DNA from: Calocera cornea HHB12733
Lineage: Eukaryota; Basidiomycota; Dacrymycetes; Dacrymycetales; Dacrymycetaceae
Assembly (NCBI GenBank): GCA_001632435.1
Contig: KV423949.1
Span: forward strand, 129,323-193,322
Length of the DNA: 64,000 bases
Direction: 5' to 3'
Every line of letters starts with the position of its first letter. Position 1 is the stretch's first letter. Shown here in pieces: positions 54,074 to 64,000 of this stretch. Made by a program: the position numbers and the translations under genes. The notes beneath the pieces are model-generated. The model ran no database searches, was not told the DNA's origin, and saw only the letters and a program-made list of their open reading frames with translations.

Positions 54074-54614
54074 TCATGACGGTGAAGGCTGCGAGAGCTA
54101 CTATGAGGCGATCGTGTCTGCTTCGACGACGCAATGAGGCGATGTGCGAGAAGCGGGCGGGATGTCCCGTTTGCCACCACTCCCGTTTCCTCCTATTTTA
54201 GTTCTGTTGTACTCGGGCGTACTCCTGCACCAGCGCCTGTCCTATATAGGCCCTATTCCGCGAGATGCCATCCTACTGATGCGTGCGTCCCAGTCCCCAC
54301 AGGCGAGCTGTCATGCAAGCCCCAAATGCGGGGAATAATCCCTGGGCAACGTAGTTGCCCAGGTTTTTTGGGGGGGGGAAATGTGCACTTTTGGACAAAT
54401 CCGGCAATTACTCCCGCTGCATAAGTTTACCTCCGCTATCTCGTGATGCGCACCGCGTCCCCACTCCGGCTTGTTGGATGGCTGGTAAGATGCCAGCCTT
54501 CCTGCCCTTGCTTGTCACCGGCTCCCCTCCCGCCTCCTTTACTTACCGGCCCCTCAAAGTTGTAGGGTAACCTCTGCACGGCCAGAACTATGCGCATGGC
54601 TGGCGGTGGGCTGA
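54074..54614. other. Intergenic, left edge of the second Helitron region
   Basis: 541 bp containing a strong hairpin (54341-54363) with an adjacent T6-G9 run, and the first two copies of the TGCGCA word (54447, 54591). Confidence 0.5.
54341..54363. repeat. 10-bp-stem hairpin followed by T and G runs
   Basis: Perfect 10-bp inverted repeat (CCTGGGCAAC and its inverse) with a 3-nt GTA loop, then six T and a run of G to ~54378. A second small stem GGGA/TCCC lies just before. It may mark an element end or a terminator-like structure; no CTRR Helitron end follows it. Confidence 0.7.
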
Positions 54615-57600
54615 ATGGGGCTTTTCCTTAAATATGGTGTCGGAACGGTGCGCATTGGTCGTAGAATTCACCTCCGCAGGATGCAAGCTCATTATGACGC
54701 TGTAGAGTGTGCAATACGTTACCAAGATGGGTCGAGTCAAGCCATTTCTATTCTAAATGATCGCTATCAATTCGAGGTCGTCGGCCGCACCACATTGTTC
54801 GTCAACAGGGAGCCTGGTCGCATGTGCCTGTTGGCCCCAGCGCTGCCGATCCTCGATGGATTCGATTTCTTTACCGTGAAGGCTCTGCGAAACATTGCGC
54901 AATGTGTGGGGCTGTCACTGCCTTCCCGAGGTCGTCGGTCAACATTGCACCCGCTCATCTGTGCACATGTTCGCACGGCGGACTACCTGCCGCACATCTT
55001 TCTGTGGGTCTTCACGCTATGTGCCCCTCGTCCATATTCCGGGACTATTCGGCGTCCTCCTGCTACAATTGTGCCCGCAAAACGGCCGCCGGAAGACGAT
55101 GCGCAAGGTCTGATGGATTTCCCGCCACCATATTCCGAGGATCTTGTCCGATCGATCATCGCAGAGTACACCGATGCTGTCAGCACCAAAACTCTGCGCA
55201 CTGGAGTTTGTGCGAGTTGTGCAGAAGCTGTCAAGTTATCTGTCATGCACACCGTTCCTGTGGAAGACTTGGATTTTTCTCTGCTCGTCAATCCACTCCT
55301 ACCTGTCCGATTTCGACCTACTACATATAATGTGGATGCATATTCGAACGCCATATTGGATGTCGCCGGTCTGTCAAATCCCCAGGAATTGGAAGGGAAC
55401 GCGACACTATGCGCACCGTGCTATCGTGCGCTTCAGTCAGATCGGAAACCCGACCTCGCTCTCGCCAACTGGTTCTACTATGCGCACGATCACGTTCCAC
55501 CTGATGTTCAACATGCGTTCGTGGCATCCACGTTTGTTGAGAAACGCCTGTTCTCCCGCTGTTCGGCAACGAAGATTTGTTATCGGTATTTCGATAATCC
55601 GGAGAGCCGGCTGTACCGAAATGCATTTGACGGCATGCAACGGTTTTCCCGAGGAAATGTCCTCATCCTGCCCCAGGATACTGCGAAGATGCACAAAGTC
55701 TTGCCGCCTCCGGTCGATGACATCAAGGACAGTTTCGTTGCAGTATTTGCTGGACAAGACCAACCGACACCGGAGATGCTGCGCAGAGTGGAGCCTCTGA
55801 AGGCAAATGCACGCACAGTGCGCACAGTAATCGATTTTCTACTGTCGCAGAACAAGGCATATCGGTCTACAACAGAAGATTTCCCAGATGGGCCTACTGT
55901 CTTTTCGCCTGCGAACTTTTCCGCCCTCTTCCCAGACAACAATCCATTATGCGCAGAGTCATCTATTGTGCTTCCGTGTATTGAGGTTGGGCATGTGCAC
56001 ATGCCCGATCCGCAGGCTGCGGTGGAGTCGGATGTGGGCAACAGGAATTCGTTCGAGGACTGCGACATGTCCTCTCCCGATTTTTTTGTGGAGGCCTCCA
56101 CTTATTCCGCCACGGAAACGTCGACAGGTGCATATGAAGCTATGAAAGCTGACGCCCTTGCGCATTGTCTCGACAACCGAGGCTCCTTCCTACTCTCCAC
56201 CCCTGGTAGCCGGCCTGTGCAAGATTTGAGGAACGAGTACCTCCTCACGTGGCTTTTTCCACATTTGGATCCTTTTGGCCTGGGTGGTTTTGATGATCCC
56301 CGTAGAACGCCAAGTGTTTCTATGGTTCGACAACTCGCTCACATGCTCCGGCTGGCTGATCGACGTTATCAAGAAGAGCCGGCATTTGCGTTCATCTTCC
56401 ACAATATCTTGCAGAAACGACAATCTCTGCGCGAAGTCAGATTTGCAATCCCTGAAGGTCGACACCAGACTATTGTGGAACATCTGCACTCTATTGACCC
56501 AGAGGTCCTTGCAAACCTTGCGCAACGTCTGAAGAAGAATCCTCGGGCTCAGCCGATCACAGGGGCTGAGGGGCTTGCTCTGCGCGTTCTTCGTCGAATC
56601 CAAATGTTGCGCAAAGATGTACCTGGATCTGATGCGTACAAGAGGGCACGACGAAATGAGATTCGCTCTCTTGTTTACCGACTTGGATCACCCGCGTTCT
56701 TCATCACCCTTACGCCGTGCGATGTGGATGGATTCCTGTGTCAGTTAGCGATCAACGGGTACAAGGACGCTGAGAAGATCAGGCTTGGCACCACTCGACA
56801 GACGAGGTTTCATCGTGCTATGCAGGTCGCCCACAATCCAGCAATTGCCGCCAGTGTTTTCCATGACACTATGCTCCGTTTTCGAGACATCATTCTGCGC
56901 ATAGGCAATGGGCCCGGATTATTTGGACAGTGCGCAGCGTGGTATGGAATGGTGGAAGCGCAAGGTCGAGGCACACTCCATTGCCACATGCTGGTGTGGA
57001 TCCAAGGCAACCTGTCACCCAAAACACTGCGCAAGATGCTGTCAGATGACCCAGGCTTCAAGAGTCGGATGATTGCATGGTTGGAATCGCTGATCAAGAC
57101 TGAACTACCTGGCGACAAAGAAGTTGTCGTTGAGCAAGATGGTCCACTCCCCATGCCGAAGCTGGACAAGGACTCCGTTGATCCTCGTACTCAGCCTTCA
57201 CCCGATCTGCGAATACATCCGGAGGTGTGGAAAGCCCAGTTCAATGCGCATGTTAAGTCACTCGTGGAACGCAACAACTGGCATGAACATCGCGCAACGT
57301 GCTGGATCCATCTTCGACGAGGTGAAGAGCCCAGCGACAACAACTGCAGAATGCGCATTGATGGTTCCACCCGTCCCTACTCTGATATTGACGCTGAGAC
57401 CGGCTCAATCCTGTTACGGCGTTTACACCCACGCATTAATGAATATAACGACGTTGTTATGTTCTTGCTTCGATCAAACATGGACATTCAGTACCTCGGC
57501 TCTGGAGAAGCCTCTCGCGCTGCGCTTTATTACATCACAGACTACATTACAAAGTCCAGCCTAAAGGTGCATGCAGGGATGACCGCACTCATCTACGCAC

Positions 57601-60587
57601 TGCAGAAGAATCAAGAGAAGTATGCGCAAAGTCTCGATGCGCCAATAGCTGTGTATAGCAAAAGCCTCGTCACGAAACTGTTGAACAGCATGATGGCACG
57701 GCAAGAAGTTTCCCACCAGCAAGTAATGAGCTACTATGTTGGTGGCGGTGACTGCTACAAGAATTTCAAATTTGCGAAACTACATTGGTCCACTTTTCTA
57801 TATCACGTTCAGCAATGGGAGAAGTCTTCTCATCCCGACAATGCGCATAGTGTCTCCAATGCCATTCCTGATCTTAATGTGGGCCCAATCCGGGACGGAG
57901 GTGATGACTGTACCGATGTTGATGATACGGAGTCTGCCTCGGTTCCGACTATGGCCCTAAATATCGACGGTGCTACTATATCAGCCGCAAGTCAGGTGCA
58001 AGACTACATGCTTCGTCCAAGCATTCCACCTTTCACAACCTATTGCTTGTACGACTTTGTGCGATTCACTGAAAAGGAGCTCATTCCGATGAAGGAACGT
58101 TGCGCAGAGTTGTCCTCTTCCTCACAGGGCAGCCAAGATTCCACCGCACTTGACGAAGACCTTGCCCGTCCCGGGAGGCCACGGCTGATGCGAGGCCGCT
58201 TCCTTCCTGACCACCCGCAATCGGCAACTCACCACATGAAGATGCGCATGGCCTGTGTGGTACCGGATATCTCAGGTACCTCGCTGCCGAGAAAAGATCT
58301 TGGGGGGGTACGTAATGAGGCATGGTGCCAGGCAATGCTTCTGTTCTTTCACCCATGGAGGACGTTCGAGGGGTTGAAAGACAATGCGCAGAGTTGGTCG
58401 CAGTCATTCGAGAACACAACATTCGATCCTTTCCACAAGAACATAATGGAGAACATGGAAGTGATGAATGACTCCAAAGAGGCCCGAGATTCGGACTTGC
58501 GAACAAAACATCGCCGATCACGACTGGCTCGACTGTCCGTGAACGCCGAAATGTTTGAATCGATCCAACAATTATTGGGTGATGACACATCTGTCGAGCA
58601 CGACATTCCATCCTTGGACACAATGGATGTCGATGATGATAACCCACCTTTTCTGTCGTCGCTTGACTCTGCGCAGAGTGTCCTTAATACTGGTCGAGCA
58701 CAAGCAGCAGTCTCATTTCTATCTAACATCGGTGGTGTCTTTCGCAGTGCGGAATGCAACACCATGTTTGAGGACCACCACTCTCCCATACGACAACACT
58801 GCGCAGACGACTCACCACAACTGGCGATGTTTGCATCTGAATTGCTTGCTTGGAGAAGAGACAAGCAACTAAACAAGGCCGTTGCATTCCACCCCTCCAA
58901 TGAAAGAGAGCGGCATGCAGACGTTACTATTGGCACATCAATGACAGATGCTACTCATGCTGAGCATACACACCACTGCGCAGAGTATCCTCTCCCATCC
59001 AATGATGTGAAATCAGCATTGGAGAATATTGCCACCGAGCAAAATCTGTTGTCAAATCCGGAGCAGCTGAGAACTCTGCGCATCGTTGCAAACCATTTAT
59101 CGGCCGCCCATCACAAACAATTACTACTCTACATTGGTGGAAGTGCTGGAACGGGCAAAAGCCATGTCATTCGATCCATTGAAGTACTTTTCTCCAAGTT
59201 GGGCATCCGATCAAGTCTCCTTCTCAGCGCACCTACTGGAGCGGCAGCGGTGGTCATTGGCGGTTACACAATCCATGCACTCACACTGTTACCAACAATG
59301 CGCGGTGTTCACGTCAATGACAAGGATTTGCAAGCAATCTGGACCGGAGTGAACTGGCTGGTAATCGACGAGATCTCCATGGTGTCTGCACAATTTCTTT
59401 ATGAGATCTCCCAGCGAATATGCCGTGGAAAACGGGCCGCAGACTCATTGCCGTTTGGGGGCATCAATGTCATATTCACTGGTGATTTTGCGCAATTGAA
59501 GCCTTTTAGTGCTGCACCACTATACAGTCATGCACTAGTGAAGCACATCGTAGGACGCACCGCCAACAGTGCGCATGGTCAGGAAGCATTGGGAGGTGCT
59601 CTGTATTGGCGCCAGCTCAACGAAGTGGTACTTCTCACTCGCAATGTGAGGCAAGCAAATGATACTCGATGGGCCAATCTCCTCAATAGAGTACGAGAAG
59701 GAGAAGGAGGCGAAGACTTTGCGCACCGTGTGGACGATTACCCCCAGTCTGACTTTGACACACTCAATCTCCGGTTGCTCTCCAATATCAATCACACCAG
59801 CTCGACAGAGGCTCAAGCTTTTCTCGATGCACCCTTCATTGTGTGTACAAAAGACATCCGTGATGCATTGAACTTGGCTCTGGCCCGCCGACATGCCGCC
59901 ATACTGCACACTGCCTGTGTCTTATACTTTGCGCAGGATAAGGTTCTACACACACCTGTGTCAGGCAGTTTTCAAGAACGACTTTGGTCCATTCCGATCA
60001 ATAAAACAGACGATGCGCCTAGTTTCATTCCAATGTTTGTCGGGATGAAGATCATGATAACTGAAAATTTGGCTCTATCTCGAGGATTGGTTAATGGAGC
60101 GACTGGCACAATATCTGGTGTACGCTACCGAACAGACTCTGATGGTCGACGCTATGCAACTGCAGTCTTTGTGCATATTCCTTCTACAAACTCTGCGCAT
60201 AGTGGGTTGTCACCACATACCATATGCATCCAGAAGACGACTAAGCGCTTTATCTTTGATACAACGGACACCAGTGGACAGCTGCAATCCTTCAAGATTA
60301 CAAGAGACTACTTTTCGCTATTGCCAGCATACTCATACACGGATTACAAGAGCCAAGGTCGATCACTCGATCGTGCTGTGGTCGATTTGGAAGGATGCCG
60401 AAATATCCAAAGTGCTTATGTAATGTTGTCGCGCGTTCGTCGGCTCGAAGGTCTCGCCATTTTACGTCCGTTTGGTGCCTCATTGTTGAAAATGGACCCT
60501 CCGTCCGATTTGACAACTGAAATCAAGCGTCTTAAAATGATGGACAACTGCACTGCTCTGCTTTATGACAAAGACACGGTCACATAA
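54615..60587 (+). CDS. Helitron 2 Rep/helicase (HUH nuclease + PIF1)
   Basis: One uninterrupted frame of 1990 residues, intronless, unlike Helitron 1. The N-terminal region has Cys pairs (CASC ... CAPC) typical of mushroom Helitron proteins. The Rep domain follows, with HUH motif GTLHCHMLVW near 790 and Tyr pair in YYITDYITK near 975. The PIF1-type helicase is near 1500-1960: Walker A GGSAGTGKS, DEISM, GDFAQLKPF, TDYKSQGRSL and VMLSRVRR. All core residues are intact, so it may be active. Thirty-one TGCGCA words fall inside: 6 read as Cys-Ala, 10 as [LMV]-Arg, and 15 as Ala-Gln/His. The perfect palindrome ACTTTGCGCAAAGT begins at the base after the stop codon. The true start could be the Met at 54681 rather than 54615. 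Confidence 0.93.
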   Translation: MGLFLKYGVGTVRIGRRIHLRRMQAHYDAVECAIRYQDGSSQAISILNDRYQFEVVGRTTLFVNREPGRMCLLAPALPILDGFDFFTVKALRNIAQCVGLSLPSRGRRSTLHPLICAHVRTADYLPHIFLWVFTLCAPRPYSGTIRRPPATIVPAKRPPEDDAQGLMDFPPPYSEDLVRSIIAEYTDAVSTKTLRTGVCASCAEAVKLSVMHTVPVEDLDFSLLVNPLLPVRFRPTTYNVDAYSNAILDVAGLSNPQELEGNATLCAPCYRALQSDRKPDLALANWFYYAHDHVPPDVQHAFVASTFVEKRLFSRCSATKICYRYFDNPESRLYRNAFDGMQRFSRGNVLILPQDTAKMHKVLPPPVDDIKDSFVAVFAGQDQPTPEMLRRVEPLKANARTVRTVIDFLLSQNKAYRSTTEDFPDGPTVFSPANFSALFPDNNPLCAESSIVLPCIEVGHVHMPDPQAAVESDVGNRNSFEDCDMSSPDFFVEASTYSATETSTGAYEAMKADALAHCLDNRGSFLLSTPGSRPVQDLRNEYLLTWLFPHLDPFGLGGFDDPRRTPSVSMVRQLAHMLRLADRRYQEEPAFAFIFHNILQKRQSLREVRFAIPEGRHQTIVEHLHSIDPEVLANLAQRLKKNPRAQPITGAEGLALRVLRRIQMLRKDVPGSDAYKRARRNEIRSLVYRLGSPAFFITLTPCDVDGFLCQLAINGYKDAEKIRLGTTRQTRFHRAMQVAHNPAIAASVFHDTMLRFRDIILRIGNGPGLFGQCAAWYGMVEAQGRGTLHCHMLVWIQGNLSPKTLRKMLSDDPGFKSRMIAWLESLIKTELPGDKEVVVEQDGPLPMPKLDKDSVDPRTQPSPDLRIHPEVWKAQFNAHVKSLVERNNWHEHRATCWIHLRRGEEPSDNNCRMRIDGSTRPYSDIDAETGSILLRRLHPRINEYNDVVMFLLRSNMDIQYLGSGEASRAALYYITDYITKSSLKVHAGMTALIYALQKNQEKYAQSLDAPIAVYSKSLVTKLLNSMMARQEVSHQQVMSYYVGGGDCYKNFKFAKLHWSTFLYHVQQWEKSSHPDNAHSVSNAIPDLNVGPIRDGGDDCTDVDDTESASVPTMALNIDGATISAASQVQDYMLRPSIPPFTTYCLYDFVRFTEKELIPMKERCAELSSSSQGSQDSTALDEDLARPGRPRLMRGRFLPDHPQSATHHMKMRMACVVPDISGTSLPRKDLGGVRNEAWCQAMLLFFHPWRTFEGLKDNAQSWSQSFENTTFDPFHKNIMENMEVMNDSKEARDSDLRTKHRRSRLARLSVNAEMFESIQQLLGDDTSVEHDIPSLDTMDVDDDNPPFLSSLDSAQSVLNTGRAQAAVSFLSNIGGVFRSAECNTMFEDHHSPIRQHCADDSPQLAMFASELLAWRRDKQLNKAVAFHPSNERERHADVTIGTSMTDATHAEHTHHCAEYPLPSNDVKSALENIATEQNLLSNPEQLRTLRIVANHLSAAHHKQLLLYIGGSAGTGKSHVIRSIEVLFSKLGIRSSLLLSAPTGAAAVVIGGYTIHALTLLPTMRGVHVNDKDLQAIWTGVNWLVIDEISMVSAQFLYEISQRICRGKRAADSLPFGGINVIFTGDFAQLKPFSAAPLYSHALVKHIVGRTANSAHGQEALGGALYWRQLNEVVLLTRNVRQANDTRWANLLNRVREGEGGEDFAHRVDDYPQSDFDTLNLRLLSNINHTSSTEAQAFLDAPFIVCTKDIRDALNLALARRHAAILHTACVLYFAQDKVLHTPVSGSFQERLWSIPINKTDDAPSFIPMFVGMKIMITENLALSRGLVNGATGTISGVRYRTDSDGRRYATAVFVHIPSTNSAHSGLSPHTICIQKTTKRFIFDTTDTSGQLQSFKITRDYFSLLPAYSYTDYKSQGRSLDRAVVDLEGCRNIQSAYVMLSRVRRLEGLAILRPFGASLLKMDPPSDLTTEIKRLKMMDNCTALLYDKDTVT

Positions 60588-61240
60588 ACTTTGCGCAAAG
60601 TGATACATCAAACTGGCACGAACTCCGGTTCACCCTTAATATACAAACTATTTGCCACCCAGTCCGCACGATGCAATATCATCAACCTAACCAATGTCAG
60701 TGAATGTGTCCCACTCAGATAACTCGTGCTGCGTCCCTGCACCTTCCTGCTGAATATCGCATCTCATGGCAATGTGATCCTCTGCGCAGTATGAAGTGGG
60801 CGTTCCAGATGCCTTGGACAACACCGATCTCCAGCCCCGCAAGCCTCCCTTCTTCTTCCCACGACATGCCTTTTGATTCTGCGCACTGTGTTCCAGCTCG
60901 AATGGCTTGTGTGTGGCTGGTCTCCAGCCCTGCTAGCCACTCTTGTCATTACAACCACAATGTGTTTGTCTCTGCGCACTGTGAAGGTGTCGGTTCAATG
61001 TTGTCCAGCCCTCCCAGCCACCGAACTCGCTGATGCTACGACTCATACACCTTTGCCCGCTGTGAAAGACCACGTTGGATCAGCCTCTGCTCTGTTCTTG
61101 TCTGTGTACATTGCGCACAGTGGCCAGCCATCATTACGTTCAAGCCTCCTGCATCCTCCAGCCCCCCGCTTGCCACATCTTTGCTATAAAGCTAGTCTTA
61201 TTCTTCGATCATCCGCAAACGCTACTCATTCCTCTCCTTC
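60588..61240. other. Intergenic with five motif copies
   Basis: 653 bp between the Helitron 2 stop and the next gene. It holds TGCGCA words at 60592, 60782, 60880, 60973 and 61113, several with the CTCTGCGCACTGTG form. A GCTATAAAG TATA-like box lies at about 61183. No ORF of coding character. Confidence 0.55.
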
Positions 61241-62171
61241 ATGGCCACCAAACGTAAGAATATAGCAAGCGACTCCAATGCCAAATCAAAGGTGTACGTC
61301 CTTATTACAGTAACTTTAACTTCCTCTGAACCTTGCGCAGAGTGAAACTGGATTCTGACCATGAACACTCCACTGCTCCAGAAGATACAGAGACCACAGC
61401 GGAAGAACTGTGCGCACTGGAAGGGTTCAGCGAGCCTCTCCTTACACGTCTGTTGAACATCCGAAAGTTTGCCGATCGCACTCGCGGCTTTTACTATGTC
61501 ACCATGTTTCCGGACAATCTCAAGTTCGGCTATGACCAAGCTTTCGATATGAGCAACTTTGTCGTCCGTCCGGATAACGTACCGGTTCAAGTGTGGCTCC
61601 TTGGCCGCATCATGGCCCACAAGTTTGTGGGCGATGAGGAGAATGTATGGCCCGACCAGGTATACATGAGCATTATGCCGCTCTCAAAGGTTGACTCCAG
61701 AGCGGCCACCCGCATCACCAATCTGTATTCTCGACCCCGCCAATGTAAGCTTTTAATATCCTTAACGACTTTCACTCAACCACTGCGCAGGGTCTGATCT
61801 GAATCCATTCGGTACTGTCATTGCCAATCATTTTCAGAAGACGTACAACACGGATAAACCTGTCAGCACTTTGCGCATCGTTCTAGCATATTTCTCACTT
61901 CTCCCAGGCAAAAGAATTTACTTCCGTGTATGATGCTACCGAAGAGATGAAGCCGAAGAAACTCATGAAGCATCTTCCTGCTTCCCGCTTGAAGAAAGGA
62001 GACGTCGTCATCACAGAAATGCGCGTAAAGAAGCGATTTGACAAACTCGACGCACACATTCCAAAGAAGGATCGCCCCCACACGATTAGCTTCCAGCTGC
62101 AGACTGTCTATCTTCTGCAAGAAGGCACCGAGCCAGTCGAGAATGATGACGGAGTATCGTATGACTTTTAA
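61241..62171 (+). CDS. Helitron 2 accessory protein, unknown fold
   Basis: Four exons: 61241-61293, 61341-61744, 61791-61861 and 61908-62171. They close to 263 residues. Introns are 47, 46 and 46 nt. The first two end inside a TGCGCA word (TTGCGCAG|A and CTGCGCAG|G); the third contains one at 61872. The protein starts MATKRKN, has an acidic stretch, then a compact region (FYYVTMFPDNLKFGYD ... VPVQVWLLGRIMAHKF). It ends in a basic, beta-rich part: LKKGDVVITEMRVKKRFDK ... TISFQLQTVYLL. That last part has the look of an OB-fold strand pattern, which would suit a single-strand DNA-binding partner of a Helitron. This is inference from pattern, not homology. It may resemble the C-terminus of the gene at 23255 beside Helitron 1. 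Confidence 0.72.
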
Positions 62172-62538
62172 CTATGCGCATCATGGAAGTACACCCCATG
62201 GCTCTTATGCCTGTCTTTACAACTAGTTCTCAATCACTCCATCCTACCAGTGCGCAAAGTCGTTCTCAGCGGATATATTTGTCCCCTTCATTACCATTTT
62301 TGGCACCATGGACGCGTTTAGCCCGGGTGGCTGGCGCAGAATTTGATTCCGTCAGACGATTCATACTTATATACCCTCCCGGGCCTTGGCCCACGGTAAT
62401 CAGCCCCTTCCGCTCTTGCCATAACCCGCCTCATGGTGGCTCCGCAACGCAACACTGCGCAGTATGTCAAGGTCATCCACTCTACCGTCCTCCCTAATGA
62501 CATAAAGACAATGCAGAGACACTGCGCATGGTGAATCG
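62172..62538. other. Intergenic with four motif copies
   Basis: 367 bp with TGCGCA words at 62175 (directly after the preceding stop), 62251, 62456 and 62523 (16 bp before the next ATG). No gene recognised. Confidence 0.5.
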
Positions 62539-62763
62539 ATGGCGTTCCACGACCCGTCTTCGAACTCGTTTCGCGCATCCGCCCTTTTTTACCGGGACTC
62601 GGACCACCTGGCGGACCTCGATAGTCTGTCCAGCGAAATCATTGATCTCAACGTCGAATTACACAATGCGAGAGATATCATATATCGTCAACACTCGGCT
62701 ATCGTGGCATTGCAAGCTCTTCTCCGAGAACGACAGATGGCAGACTCTGCGCATAGTGCTTGA
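62539..62763 (+). CDS. Small coiled-coil protein (74 aa)
   Basis: Short frame from ATG to TGA. Residues ~20-70 form a leucine-rich helix with heptad-like spacing (LADLDSLSSEIIDLNVELHN ... IVALQALLRERQ). The last codons, SAHSA, are written by a TGCGCA word at 62748, four codons before the stop. It could be a complete small protein or one exon of a larger gene. Similar coiled-coil content to the following gene supports a real product. No function assigned. Confidence 0.5.
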   Translation: MAFHDPSSNSFRASALFYRDSDHLADLDSLSSEIIDLNVELHNARDIIYRQHSAIVALQALLRERQMADSAHSA

Positions 62764-63146
62764 CGGACTCTGTATCCTGCCTGCAGGTTTTGCTCTGTAA
62801 TCTATTGCCTTTCTTCAAGCCTTTGCGCACGGTCATCCCTCCGGCACGCGGTCACGTGGATTTTCGTCCCGTGCGGTCTCAGATTGCTTCCGCTTCCATC
62901 GTCGGTCAAGCACAAGTCCACTGTACACTGCGCATCGTCGATCTGCCTCGGTTCCAATGTCTCAACCCCCTCTGACACCTGATCCACCGCGTTCTAACCA
63001 GCCTGCCCGTGGCTCGCCTCGCTGGACCCGCGCACACGTGAGAATGCCCACACGTGACGCCCCGGGAAACTGGCCTGAGTTCCCAGATGGCGGCCGCGCT
63101 CGCAGCTCCGTCGGCCTACCTTCCATAACTCTGCGCATCGTATCTC
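62764..63146. other. Intergenic with three motif copies
   Basis: 383 bp with TGCGCA words at 62824, 62929 and 63132. A Pro/Arg-rich open frame from 62957 overlaps the next gene's start but has no coding support beyond being open. Confidence 0.4.
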
Positions 63147-63824
63147 ATGCCTTCCCAGTCCTCCCTTCGCGCCCCTCTCCGTGGTAGCCCTGCGCATCGT
63201 TCGTCTCCTCGCCCTCTTACCATGAACCGAGGGCGTGGCGGAGGGCAAGCCACGTTTCAGCCGTAAGCCTGCCTCGCCATTACCCTTCTTCACTAAACTC
63301 TGCGCAGGGGTTGGGTTGATAACATGAGGGAAGATAATGACGACGAAAGCGACGACGACGCCGACGCCGACGCCGGTCCAGATGGTAACCCTGCGCAGCG
63401 TCATCCCCACCAGCCCGACGATACTATTGCTCTGAGCAACGCGTGGTTGGCCATTTACGGCGAACAGCACTCTGAAGACACCGCAGCAATGGCTGCTCTC
63501 CGAACGCAGATCCGCGAGCTTAACATCCAGATCAACACTCTCCAGCAAACCAATGCGCAGAGTCAAGCAGAATGCGACCGTCTGAATCTTCAAATCGTCC
63601 AACTTCAACAAGACAATGCGCAACGTCAAGCCGATTTCGACCGCCTTTCCGCGGAAATGATAGCCTTACGCGCACGCAACGCCGAACTACTGCGTGACCG
63701 AGAAGAGCTCCTCCAGCTGCGCGCTACAGTTGTACGCATGGGCACCTCGTCCCAGGCCTTGGGCTTTTCGCGTTCTCGTACGGACAATACAGGGGGGCCC
63801 CATCCTCGCAGTCGCAGATACTAG
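63147..63824 (+). CDS. Coiled-coil protein with acidic stretch (210 aa)
   Basis: Exons 63147-63262 and 63308-63824 close to 210 residues. The 45-nt intron ends in ACTCTGCGCAG, so its acceptor is part of the dispersed word. The N-terminus is Ser/Arg/Pro-rich (RGRGGGQ), followed by an acidic run of Asp-Ala repeats. A long coiled coil covers ~105-190 (IRELNIQINTLQQTNAQSQ, LNLQIVQLQQDNAQRQ). The two NAQxQ copies, 21 residues apart, are each encoded by the word in the same codon position (63554, 63617). An alternative start is the Met at 63223. Role unknown; it could be a dimerisation or scaffold factor. Confidence 0.65.
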
Positions 63825-64000
63825 AGACACTGCGCATTGTATTACATCTACTTCGTTACACGCGCTCAAACAGTGTAGCTATGTAATTGATCTTCTTTTC
63901 CCACTGTTCCAATCATTAGCACTCTTTTTCTCAATGCGCAAACTTTGCTTACGCGACGATTCGATTGCGGCGTTGCCTCCAAGATGATCCTCCAACGGTG
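63825..64000. other. 3' flank, window end
   Basis: Holds two more TGCGCA words (63831, 63935). The array has not ended at the window edge. Confidence 0.6.

Follow-up and report, generated by a model that had tools for sequence, protein, structure and literature searches.

The window analysed here, a stretch of 64,000 nucleotides of the jelly fungus Calocera cornea, ends within a Helitron, E36, whose features are collected in Table 1. The element starts after an A with TCCCTGGGC, a 5' end common to three copies, and ends with GGTGCTA before a T, a 3' end common to two. Helitrons are expected to start with TC after an A, to end with a 3' hairpin and a CTRR-like sequence and to insert without duplication; here TCCC follows A in three copies and CTA precedes T in two, this 3' end not being the full CTRR. 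The 5' terminus has three matches in the genome when up to three mismatches are permitted. Assignment to the Helitrons follows from a Rep (HUH) domain and a PIF1-like helicase in one protein, the product of ORF1 (Helitron_like_N, E = 1e-30; PIF1, E = 2e-18). The earlier note had closed this region at 63940, while the element actually runs from 54339 to about 2.47 kb beyond the end of the window.

Table 1. Features of the Helitron E36 and its surroundings, in window positions
Feature	Position	Strand	Description
Class A Helitron E36	54339..64000 (C36:183661 to ~195792)	+	~12,132 bp, ~2.47 kb of it beyond the window; termini common to relatives
5' terminal hairpin	54341..54363	+	CCTGGGCAACGTAGTTGCCCAGG, then TTTTTTGG
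Palindromic sites	54447..63940	.	57 TGCGCA cores (76 in the whole of E36), 25 of them the full ACnnTGCGCAnnGT
ORF1	54615..60587	+	1990-aa Helitron Rep/helicase: DUF6570, Helitron_like_N, PIF1; 31 sites spread over the three frames
ORF2	61241..62171	+	putative 263-aa protein, 4 exons: 61241-61293, 61341-61744, 61791-61861, 61908-62171 (gene model made here)
Short ORF	62506..62760	+	looks coiled-coil; kept in the C79 and C118 relatives; no Pfam match
Acidic and coiled-coil ORF	63297..63824	+	C118 and C140 relatives arranged alike (by reading); weak coiled-coil matches, none above cut-off
RPA-like gene stretch, first bases	63861..64000	-	gene almost wholly beyond the window

The C140 copy of ORF2 is represented by an NCBI gene model (P0006), and relatives of ORF2 occur in Helitrons of the classes A, B and C described below as well as adjoining Helitrons that lack the motif. 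Among the accessory Helitron ORFs tested (classes A and B), none has a Pfam match above the cut-off. The RPA-like gene, with ORF pieces beyond the window, matches Rep_fac-A_C at E = 7e-6 and 26.3 bits (cut-off 28.5) and has a weak OB-fold match. Rfam and ARAGORN scans of the window returned nothing, and the viral contigs compared gave no match.

E36 carries many copies of a short palindrome. Our recount reproduces the 57 copies of TGCGCA in 54447-63940 and the 16 in the remainder of the window reported earlier. The chance expectation of two to three copies for the region becomes 4.6 when recomputed from dinucleotides, which leaves the strong excess in place; for the remainder, 19.2 copies are expected. 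Among the 57 cores, GT follows in 37 and both flanks are present in 25, in agreement with the first count, and AC precedes in 36 rather than 35; both flanks occur in none of the 16 other copies. Taken singly, the flanking positions are occupied 45 times (A(-4)), 47 times (C(-3)), 47 times (G(+8)) and 45 times (T(+9)). The 14-mer with up to one mismatch gives 53 matches in the window against 2.2 expected. Hence the enrichment is confirmed as real, and it is stronger than first described. Genome-wide, the full 14-mer occurs 161 times in 32.1 Mb (reversed pattern as control: 37), and 102 of these copies are held by six transposon copies. An equal density in ordinary host genes would, by the earlier note, have refuted the observation; the density in host DNA differs from that in the element.

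Two relatives, E79 and E118, share 65-69% of their nucleotides with E36 over ORF1. Of the 31 ORF1 sites of E36, 24 are found at the same position in E79 and 21 in E118, against 12.8% and 9.7%, respectively, for all hexamers. Over the whole element E118 keeps 52 of 76 sites, and a fragment on C258 keeps 19 of 28 where 24% of hexamers are retained. The sites are conserved at the DNA level whatever the reading frame, and in class A pairs only, lost sites are seen to be replaced nearby. In 300 synonymous codon shuffles of ORF1 the mean number of sites was 6.3 and the maximum 14, compared with the actual 31; for the full motif the figures are 0.3 and 14. An origin by chance, through codon preference, from low-complexity sequence or by tandem repetition, for which we found no point in favour, is excluded by these shuffles, by dinucleotide shuffles and by the conservation, and its probability is next to nil. 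The palindromes are selected DNA sites. The amino-acid cost at motif codons appears small (identity to outgroups 0.33-0.54, elsewhere 0.39-0.53).

The conserved footprint is itself symmetrical. Between E36 and E118, identity is 0.80-0.86 in the core, 0.74-0.75 at C(-3)/G(+8) and 0.68 at T(+9), compared with 0.46-0.66 in the spacers and a background of 0.60; the outermost A(-4) reaches just 0.59 in this pair and 0.81 between E36 and E79. Together with the conservation in all frames and the element-specific density, this footprint gives good support to the dimeric DNA-binding protein favoured by the earlier note, and we regard the palindromes as very probably binding sites for dimeric proteins. 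A site-specific micro-insertion, also considered there, finds no support: in each of seven comparisons 25-29 of the 31 ORF1 sites of E36 lie off alignment gaps, and the 2-6 that lie on gaps slightly exceed the expectation of 1.7-3.9 in six of them.

The sites are laid out along the entire element. In the transposons that carry them, one site is found per approximately 110-270 bp over the full length, coding or not; in ORF1 of E36 the dispersed palindromes reach 5.2 per kb, and the sites extend through coding bodies to about 0.1 kb from both element ends. Spacing is irregular, as first described, yet significantly more even than random placement: its coefficient of variation is 0.59 in E36 and 0.56 in E118 against 0.98 for random sites (longest gap 412 bp in each), and the evenness of E36 was matched by none of 5000 simulations. 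Even spacing holds for most elements tested, including a Harbinger transposon on C34 (0.60, p = 0.02), is weaker in class C and is not significant in E116. The sites show no 10.5 bp helical phasing; a weak phase of 150-170 bp is present in E36 and E67 and absent in E118.

Beyond the element ends the sites thin out. E36 is flanked by none in 1.3 kb upstream and three in 9.2 kb downstream, E118 by one in 1.0 kb and six in 9.8 kb, and the reverse-transcriptase-bearing DNA nested in E23 (5.4 kb after ORF1) contains none of the five patterns searched. A mutational or gene-conversion bias that produces a functionless palindrome, in line with the biased-repair origin proposed for cyanobacterial HIP sequences (PMC4390886), would not be expected to spare the host DNA on either side and the nested retroelement sequence, where sites are almost or entirely absent. 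Nor would it be expected to yield fixed positions over 30-35% divergence, even spacing and a class-by-clade pattern, and we consider it highly improbable.

The earlier note treated the motif as a feature of one Helitron. There are instead at least four classes of palindrome, of which this is one, and its own class also occurs in a PIF/Harbinger transposon. Two further Helitron clades carry different palindromes, AAnnnGCGCnnnTT and CACGTG. The classes are discrete, with AC, AG or AA around GCGC, plus CACGTG, and all are centred on CpG. Class A is found in E36, E79 and E118, class B in E140 and E21, and class C in E45, E67, E23 and E116, each being one clade. Thus a short motif is enriched per transposon family and differs in related families, as in the VANC system discussed below. 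The nine class A-C Helitrons reach palindrome log-likelihoods of 39-244. Eight others (E125, E48, E28, E62, E8, E7, E84, E3), scored on partial elements (5.7-9.0 kb of each; E48 with 246 N), have no detectable palindrome and values of 6-15, while thirteen 4-kb blocks of the remaining window give a background of up to 18. Six elements (E86, Ewin1, E120, E262, E77, E14) were left out of this scoring and examined for gapped words only, a search in which the top words of E36, E21, E48 and E86 were uninformative N runs. Since eight Helitrons show no sites in the stretches examined, the sites seem to be dispensable for some. Sister copies without conserved sites would, by the earlier note, have refuted the observation: close sisters keep the sites, while in more distant ones a different palindrome or none was detected. 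Class C is less well conserved: E45 and E116 share 6 of 23 sites with a core identity of 0.57-0.65, scarcely above the background of 0.56. Sites of class A and class C were not taken to be homologous, as their positions fail to coincide in the alignment.

The same classes recur in PIF/Harbinger transposons. Those on C34 and C243 belong to class A, with 18 TGCGCA in 2.7 kb; they encode DDE_Tnp_4 (PF13359, E = 4e-13) and Myb/SANT (PF12776, E = 2e-6) domains, both above the cut-off, and have the terminal inverted repeat GAGCCTGTTCGG with 3-bp target site duplications TGA and TAA. The Harbinger on C268 is of the AG class, the outer bases being G and C in 7 of 10 TGCGCA; only 4 of 18 sites coincide between C34 and C268. 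Judged by site positions only, AG clusters lie over DDE_Tnp_4 matches on C2, C14 and C18, and a class B (AA) cluster over a Harbinger relative on C1. A further AG cluster is located at C11:338483-343021. No gene common to Helitrons and Harbingers was detected in the two Harbingers read. Because the two superfamilies share classes yet no detected gene, we infer that related dimeric proteins form a family that acts in trans, each class being read by one member; the gene for the reader would lie in the host or in another element.

Helitrons move by rolling circle and possess, besides the Rep/helicase, ORF2 and a gene for an RPA-like protein, so an element protein might bind the sites in replication or excision. 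We consider this very unlikely, as Harbingers and Helitrons differ in machinery and share site classes nevertheless, and as the C48 Helitron possesses ORF1 and ORF2 without detectable sites. Host transcription or chromatin factors that raise transposon gene expression (a bHLH-like one at CACGTG and different ones at the GCGC classes) would explain why the classes recur in unrelated transposons, which places the factor outside the element, and CACGTG is the classical E-box. However, the sites run evenly through coding bodies rather than close to promoters, and isolated sites are few in the genome (the six copies account for all but 59 of the 161 full AC sites, the reversed control numbering 37), which makes this explanation unlikely.

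We therefore favour a reading in which dimeric trans-acting proteins coat DNA transposons, most likely against silencing, and assign it a probability of roughly 45%. Certain DNA transposons of C. cornea would have been selected to carry double-stranded sites for such proteins along their whole length, and the bound protein might keep the element body open against cytosine methylation and heterochromatin, much as VANC proteins do for the VANDAL transposons of Arabidopsis. Tiling of the whole body would fit the blocking or reversal of a spreading mark, and not a promoter or an end signal for transposition. There is something to counter, as some element copies have visibly lost CpG and the genome holds DNA_methylase matches (C104 and C177). 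That the bound protein is anti-silencing is a tentative proposal, which we hold to be somewhat less likely than not.

Retention of CpG bears on this proposal. In E79, motif CpGs are kept in 18 of 21 cases and other CpGs in 47 of 123 (p = 7e-5), but 11 of 13 non-motif GCGC are kept too. In the C258 fragment, CpGs common to E36 and E118 are kept in 14 of 21 motif and 42 of 90 other cases (p = 0.15); over all E36 CpGs the numbers are 19 of 28 and 105 of 273 (p = 0.004), with 6 of 17 for non-motif GCGC. Shielding of motif CpGs by a bound protein is only suggested by these figures, and earlier selection on the sites accounts for the retention equally well. We do not claim it as proof of a bound protein, the signal being suggestive in E79, weaker in C258 and confounded by GCGC context.

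Several known systems resemble parts of this picture. En/Spm (TnpA) and Ac carry several copies of a short transposase-binding word in subterminal position; the Calocera elements likewise hold multiple copies of a short putative protein-binding word, but are tiled throughout and not at the ends only. A literature search on such subterminal repeats found nothing. In Arabidopsis, the motifs of the anti-silencing VANC proteins (YAGTATTAY, AGTTGTMC) are dense in one VANDAL transposon family and rare in others, non-palindromic, mostly non-coding, in one orientation and spread by tandem repeats (PMC5735166, PMC10398659). The likeness lies in a motif that differs among related families, in the importance of density, and in an unrelated transposon, AT9TSD1, that carries the VANC6 motif (PMC5735166, PMC10398659). 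The Calocera sites differ from such tandem, one-orientation, non-coding motifs in being palindromic, dispersed, also coding, and in class A fixed over 30-35% divergence, with a protein that is putative.

HIP1 (GCGATCGC) and other iterated palindromes of cyanobacteria are likewise dispersed, at times with flank extensions, and some genomes use a different palindrome; they occur genome-wide in bacteria, vary among some strains and are tied to methyltransferases (PMC4390886). The Calocera palindromes lack such a genome-wide high frequency and are concentrated in certain eukaryotic transposons. By comparison with HIP1, they could be a DNA modification or self/non-self label, that is, a cytosine methyltransferase target or a protective mark, as their CpG centres and the DNA_methylase matches would allow. 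Such a mark would have to be restricted to particular transposons, the scan of element ORFs revealed no methyltransferase, and outer bases at fixed distance resemble a dimer site more; we hold a label to be quite unlikely.

Fungal DNA transposons bearing TET/JBP genes include the same kinds, Helitron and Harbinger, and no retrotransposon, and this anti-methylation tool has been passed between lineages (PMC12730594). There the element carries an enzyme gene, here a repeated cis site. The C. cornea genome has four below-cut-off TET/JBP matches, none in the clusters described. Beyond the coating of single elements, unrelated Helitrons and PIF/Harbingers may have converged on the same CpG-centred palindromes as a shared, evolving recognition code, with whole bodies tiled and held open by dimeric trans-acting proteins and class changed by moving to another palindrome. 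This possibility, to which we lean slightly less than to the coating itself, would amount to a mark that is recognised in more than one transposon superfamily, in contrast to transposase or VANC sites private to an element; our literature search found no description of such a system.

To our knowledge, little is known of transposon escape from silencing outside plants. As selection has written the site into transposon DNA, together with its spacing and no fewer than four classes of specificity, a short DNA duplex should suffice to fish directly for a reader protein. Since classes are shared between Helitrons and Harbingers, one can ask whether elements exploit a factor that belongs to the host or to another element, and if the sites exclude methylation, they would be ready-made short tags to keep DNA open in a fungus. 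ORF2 was set aside as a candidate reader; its two AlphaFold models are of low confidence (mean pLDDT 45 and 49). Two of the three ORF2 introns end within a motif copy, with TGCGCAG as acceptor.

Within window positions 54447-63940, the core TGCGCA occurs 57 times, and 16 times in the remaining window (dinucleotide expectation 4.6 and 19.2); the tallies of the earlier note, which had claimed a dispersed palindrome in this region, were thus reproduced. Of the 57 cores, 36 have AC at the mirror position, 37 have GT and 25 have both; the two together flank none of the 16 outside cores. The genome-wide count that had been set beforehand as a check (32.1 Mb, 302 contigs) also speaks for the claim: the full 14-mer, i.e., the core with outer AC upstream and GT downstream, occurs 161 times versus 37 for the reversed pattern, and 102 of the 161 lie within six transposon copies, namely elements E36 (35), E118 (25) and E79 (19), numbered by contig, and copies on contigs C258 (11), C34 (6) and C243 (6). 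A Helitron helicase match also falls at 16-38 kb of the window, but these 22 kb hold only 4 TGCGCA and lack the full motif.

Transposons carrying the palindrome and their parts
Feature	Position	Length	Content
E36	window 54339 to ~2.47 kb beyond window end	~12,132 bp	76 sites
E36 ORF1		1990 aa	DUF6570, Helitron_like_N, PIF1
E36 ORF2	window 61241-62171		four exons by the report's gene model
E36, two short ORFs			coiled-coil type
E36 RPA-like gene	minus strand, beyond window		Rep_fac-A_C 26.3 bits, cut-off 28.5
PIF/Harbinger copy	C34:172883-175604 (L043:884-3605)	2,722 bp	DDE_Tnp_4 and Myb/SANT matches
Second PIF/Harbinger copy	C243 (L049:1148-3869)		99.5% identical to C34

E36 is a Helitron on contig C36, of which the window covers positions 129323-193322, and its ORF1 has a 68% match to a predicted protein of Calocera cornea HHB12733. 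Site density is 4-8 per kb in each of six stretches (5' leader, ORF1, the gap that follows, ORF2, middle and RPA stretch), with no site in the last 103 bp. No site lies in the 1,338 bp ahead of the element and 3 lie in the 9,207 bp behind it; the flanks of E118 hold 1 site in 1,037 bp and 6 in 9,799 bp, respectively. In the gene model of ORF2, motif copies provide the splice acceptor TGCGCAG in two of three introns.

An ORF1 search of the genome gave at least 33 matching places (24 of 48 candidates scored), among them two relatives, E79 and E118, that bear this palindrome too (69% and 65% nucleotide identity over ORF1, respectively). The comparison of sister copies, likewise named beforehand, found the sites kept: 24 of 31 ORF1 sites stand at the same aligned position in E36 and E79, 21 of 31 in E36 and E118, and 19 of 28 in E79 and E118, versus 12.8%, 9.7% and 9.9% of hexamers in general. 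Over the whole element, 52 of the 76 E36 sites are common to E118. Between these two, conservation reaches 0.80-0.86 across the core; C(-3) and G(+8) stand at 0.74-0.75, T(+9) at 0.68 and the spacers at 0.46-0.66. In this pair A(-4) is no better conserved than background (0.59), but its value is 0.81 between E36 and E79. C258 bears a 3' fragment of a fourth such Helitron (78% identity) with 23 sites in 3.6 kb, which retains 19 of the 28 E36 sites of that stretch versus 24% of hexamers. All three reading frames of E36 ORF1 are occupied (15, 10 and 6 sites), and 300 synonymous codon shuffles, the control proposed earlier, yield a mean of 6.3 and a maximum of 14 sites versus the 31 present.

Dyad discovery assigned the Helitrons to class A, ACnnTGCGCAnnGT (E36, E79, E118), class B, AAnnnGCGCnnnTT (E140, E21), and class C, CACGTG (E45, E67, E23, E116). 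Each class forms a single clade in the ORF1 tree (local support 1.0). In the stretches examined of eight further Helitrons the method detected no palindrome; E48, one of these, and class B E140 are equally close to E36 in ORF1 (52%). Conversion between classes A and C was rejected, since their sites lie at non-homologous places. Class C is less well conserved than class A, with 6 of 23 sites in common for E45/E116, 11 of 20 for E67/E116 and 14 of 25 for E23/E116 (hexamer background 6.5%, 10.3% and 10.9%).

The cluster on C34 belongs to a PIF/Harbinger element and not to a Helitron, as follows from its matches to DDE_Tnp_4 and Myb/SANT, from its inverted ends (GAGCCTGTTCGG in C34 and C243) and from 3-bp target duplications. 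The latter, TGA and TAA, differ between the two copies, which were probably mobile recently. Six of the 18 TGCGCA of C34 are full class A sites, the same palindrome as in E36. A relative on C268 (71% identity over 1.0 kb) carries AGnnTGCGCAnnCT instead: 7 of its 10 TGCGCA are flanked by an outer G and C, and 5 show the full AG pattern; only 4 of C34's 18 sites coincide. Genome-wide, the AG pattern occurs 183 times (38 reversed). Among some 50 matches listed it clusters on C2 (11), C11 (9), C14 (6) and C18 (6), the last two with the same spacing; judged by site positions only, C2, C14 and C18 coincide with DDE_Tnp_4 matches, and the nine AGnnTGCGCAnnCT sites of C11:338483-343021 spread over 4.5 kb that has no DDE_Tnp_4 match and none of the listed Helitron matches (24 of 48 Helitron candidates scored). 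Class B occurs 591 times (421 reversed), and a Harbinger relative on C1 has 11 such sites over 2.5 kb, again by site positions only. Frame comparison found no gene common to the C34 and C268 Harbingers and seven Helitrons; a single weak match (E 0.008) is taken as chance. As the same site classes occur without a detected common gene, the palindrome repertoire crosses both superfamilies.

Site spacing is more even than random: its coefficient of variation is 0.59 in E36 and 0.56 in E118 versus 0.98 +/- 0.11, reached in 0 of 5000 simulations, and the longest gap is 412 bp in both (~770 expected). Evenness also holds for E79 (p 0.005), C34 (p 0.02) and class B E140 (0 of 5000, the longest gap lacking such significance), and is weaker in class C (E67 0.005, E45 0.018, E23 0.014, E116 0.11). 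Where a class A site is lost in one copy, the partner copy tends to hold another close by (three ORF1 pairs: p 0.005, 0.09 and 0.001), although some short distances may be alignment slips; four class B/C pairs showed no such tendency.

The palindromes are a real, selected and unusual feature. Judged from sequence, they are very probably protein binding sites (roughly 0.9). Dimeric proteins of one family, binding along the entire element, would fit the symmetry of the sites, their conservation regardless of frame, the even tiling and the switches of class. Such a protein would act in trans, host-encoded or borrowed, because unrelated elements have sites in common, and its effect should be favourable, as elements would not retain sites for a harmful factor. 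A tiled coding body would suit shielding from a spreading mark; by analogy, an anti-silencing role is conceivable at somewhat under even odds. VANDAL/VANC is the nearest precedent (PMC5735166, PMC10398659) and HIP1 the nearest dispersed palindrome (PMC4390886). Among the open-licence papers that the searches listed, no title or abstract opening described dispersed palindromes in fungal Helitrons, Dacrymycetes or Calocera. Some fungal DNA transposons, Helitrons and Harbingers among them, carry TET/JBP genes as anti-methylation tools, with none found in retrotransposons (PMC12730594). Weak TET/JBP-like matches below the Pfam cut-off lie at C49:9728, C100:113531, C111:108640 and C176:58571; those on C111 and C176 agree in score and span, so that they may represent two copies of a repeat.

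E79 (L006), E21 (L009) and C258 (L050) resemble CpG-directed decay, their relatives having normal CpG; in E79 and E21, TGA stops occur as well, several of them where CGN codons once stood. Methylation-driven decay is plausible, since the genome has DNA_methylase matches and these copies have lost CpG (observed/expected 0.62, 0.66 and 0.77, respectively). CpGs survive in E79 at 18 of 21 motif positions versus 47 of 123 elsewhere, but also at 11 of 13 non-motif GCGC, and in C258 at 14 of 21 versus 42 of 90 (p 0.15); with all E36 CpGs counted, the C258 figures become 19 of 28 versus 105 of 273 (p 0.004). These values do not amount to proof.

In E23, a retroelement seems to be inserted, since class C sites cease just past ORF1, a reverse-transcriptase match comes next and ORF2 follows only at C23:113713. 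Five palindrome patterns sought in 5.4 kb of this reverse-transcriptase-bearing sequence gave no hit. TCGA occurs there (L013:6991-8415 and L042, C23) at 18.1 per kb versus ~5 in the window, 2.2 times the dinucleotide expectation, with asymmetrical flanks.
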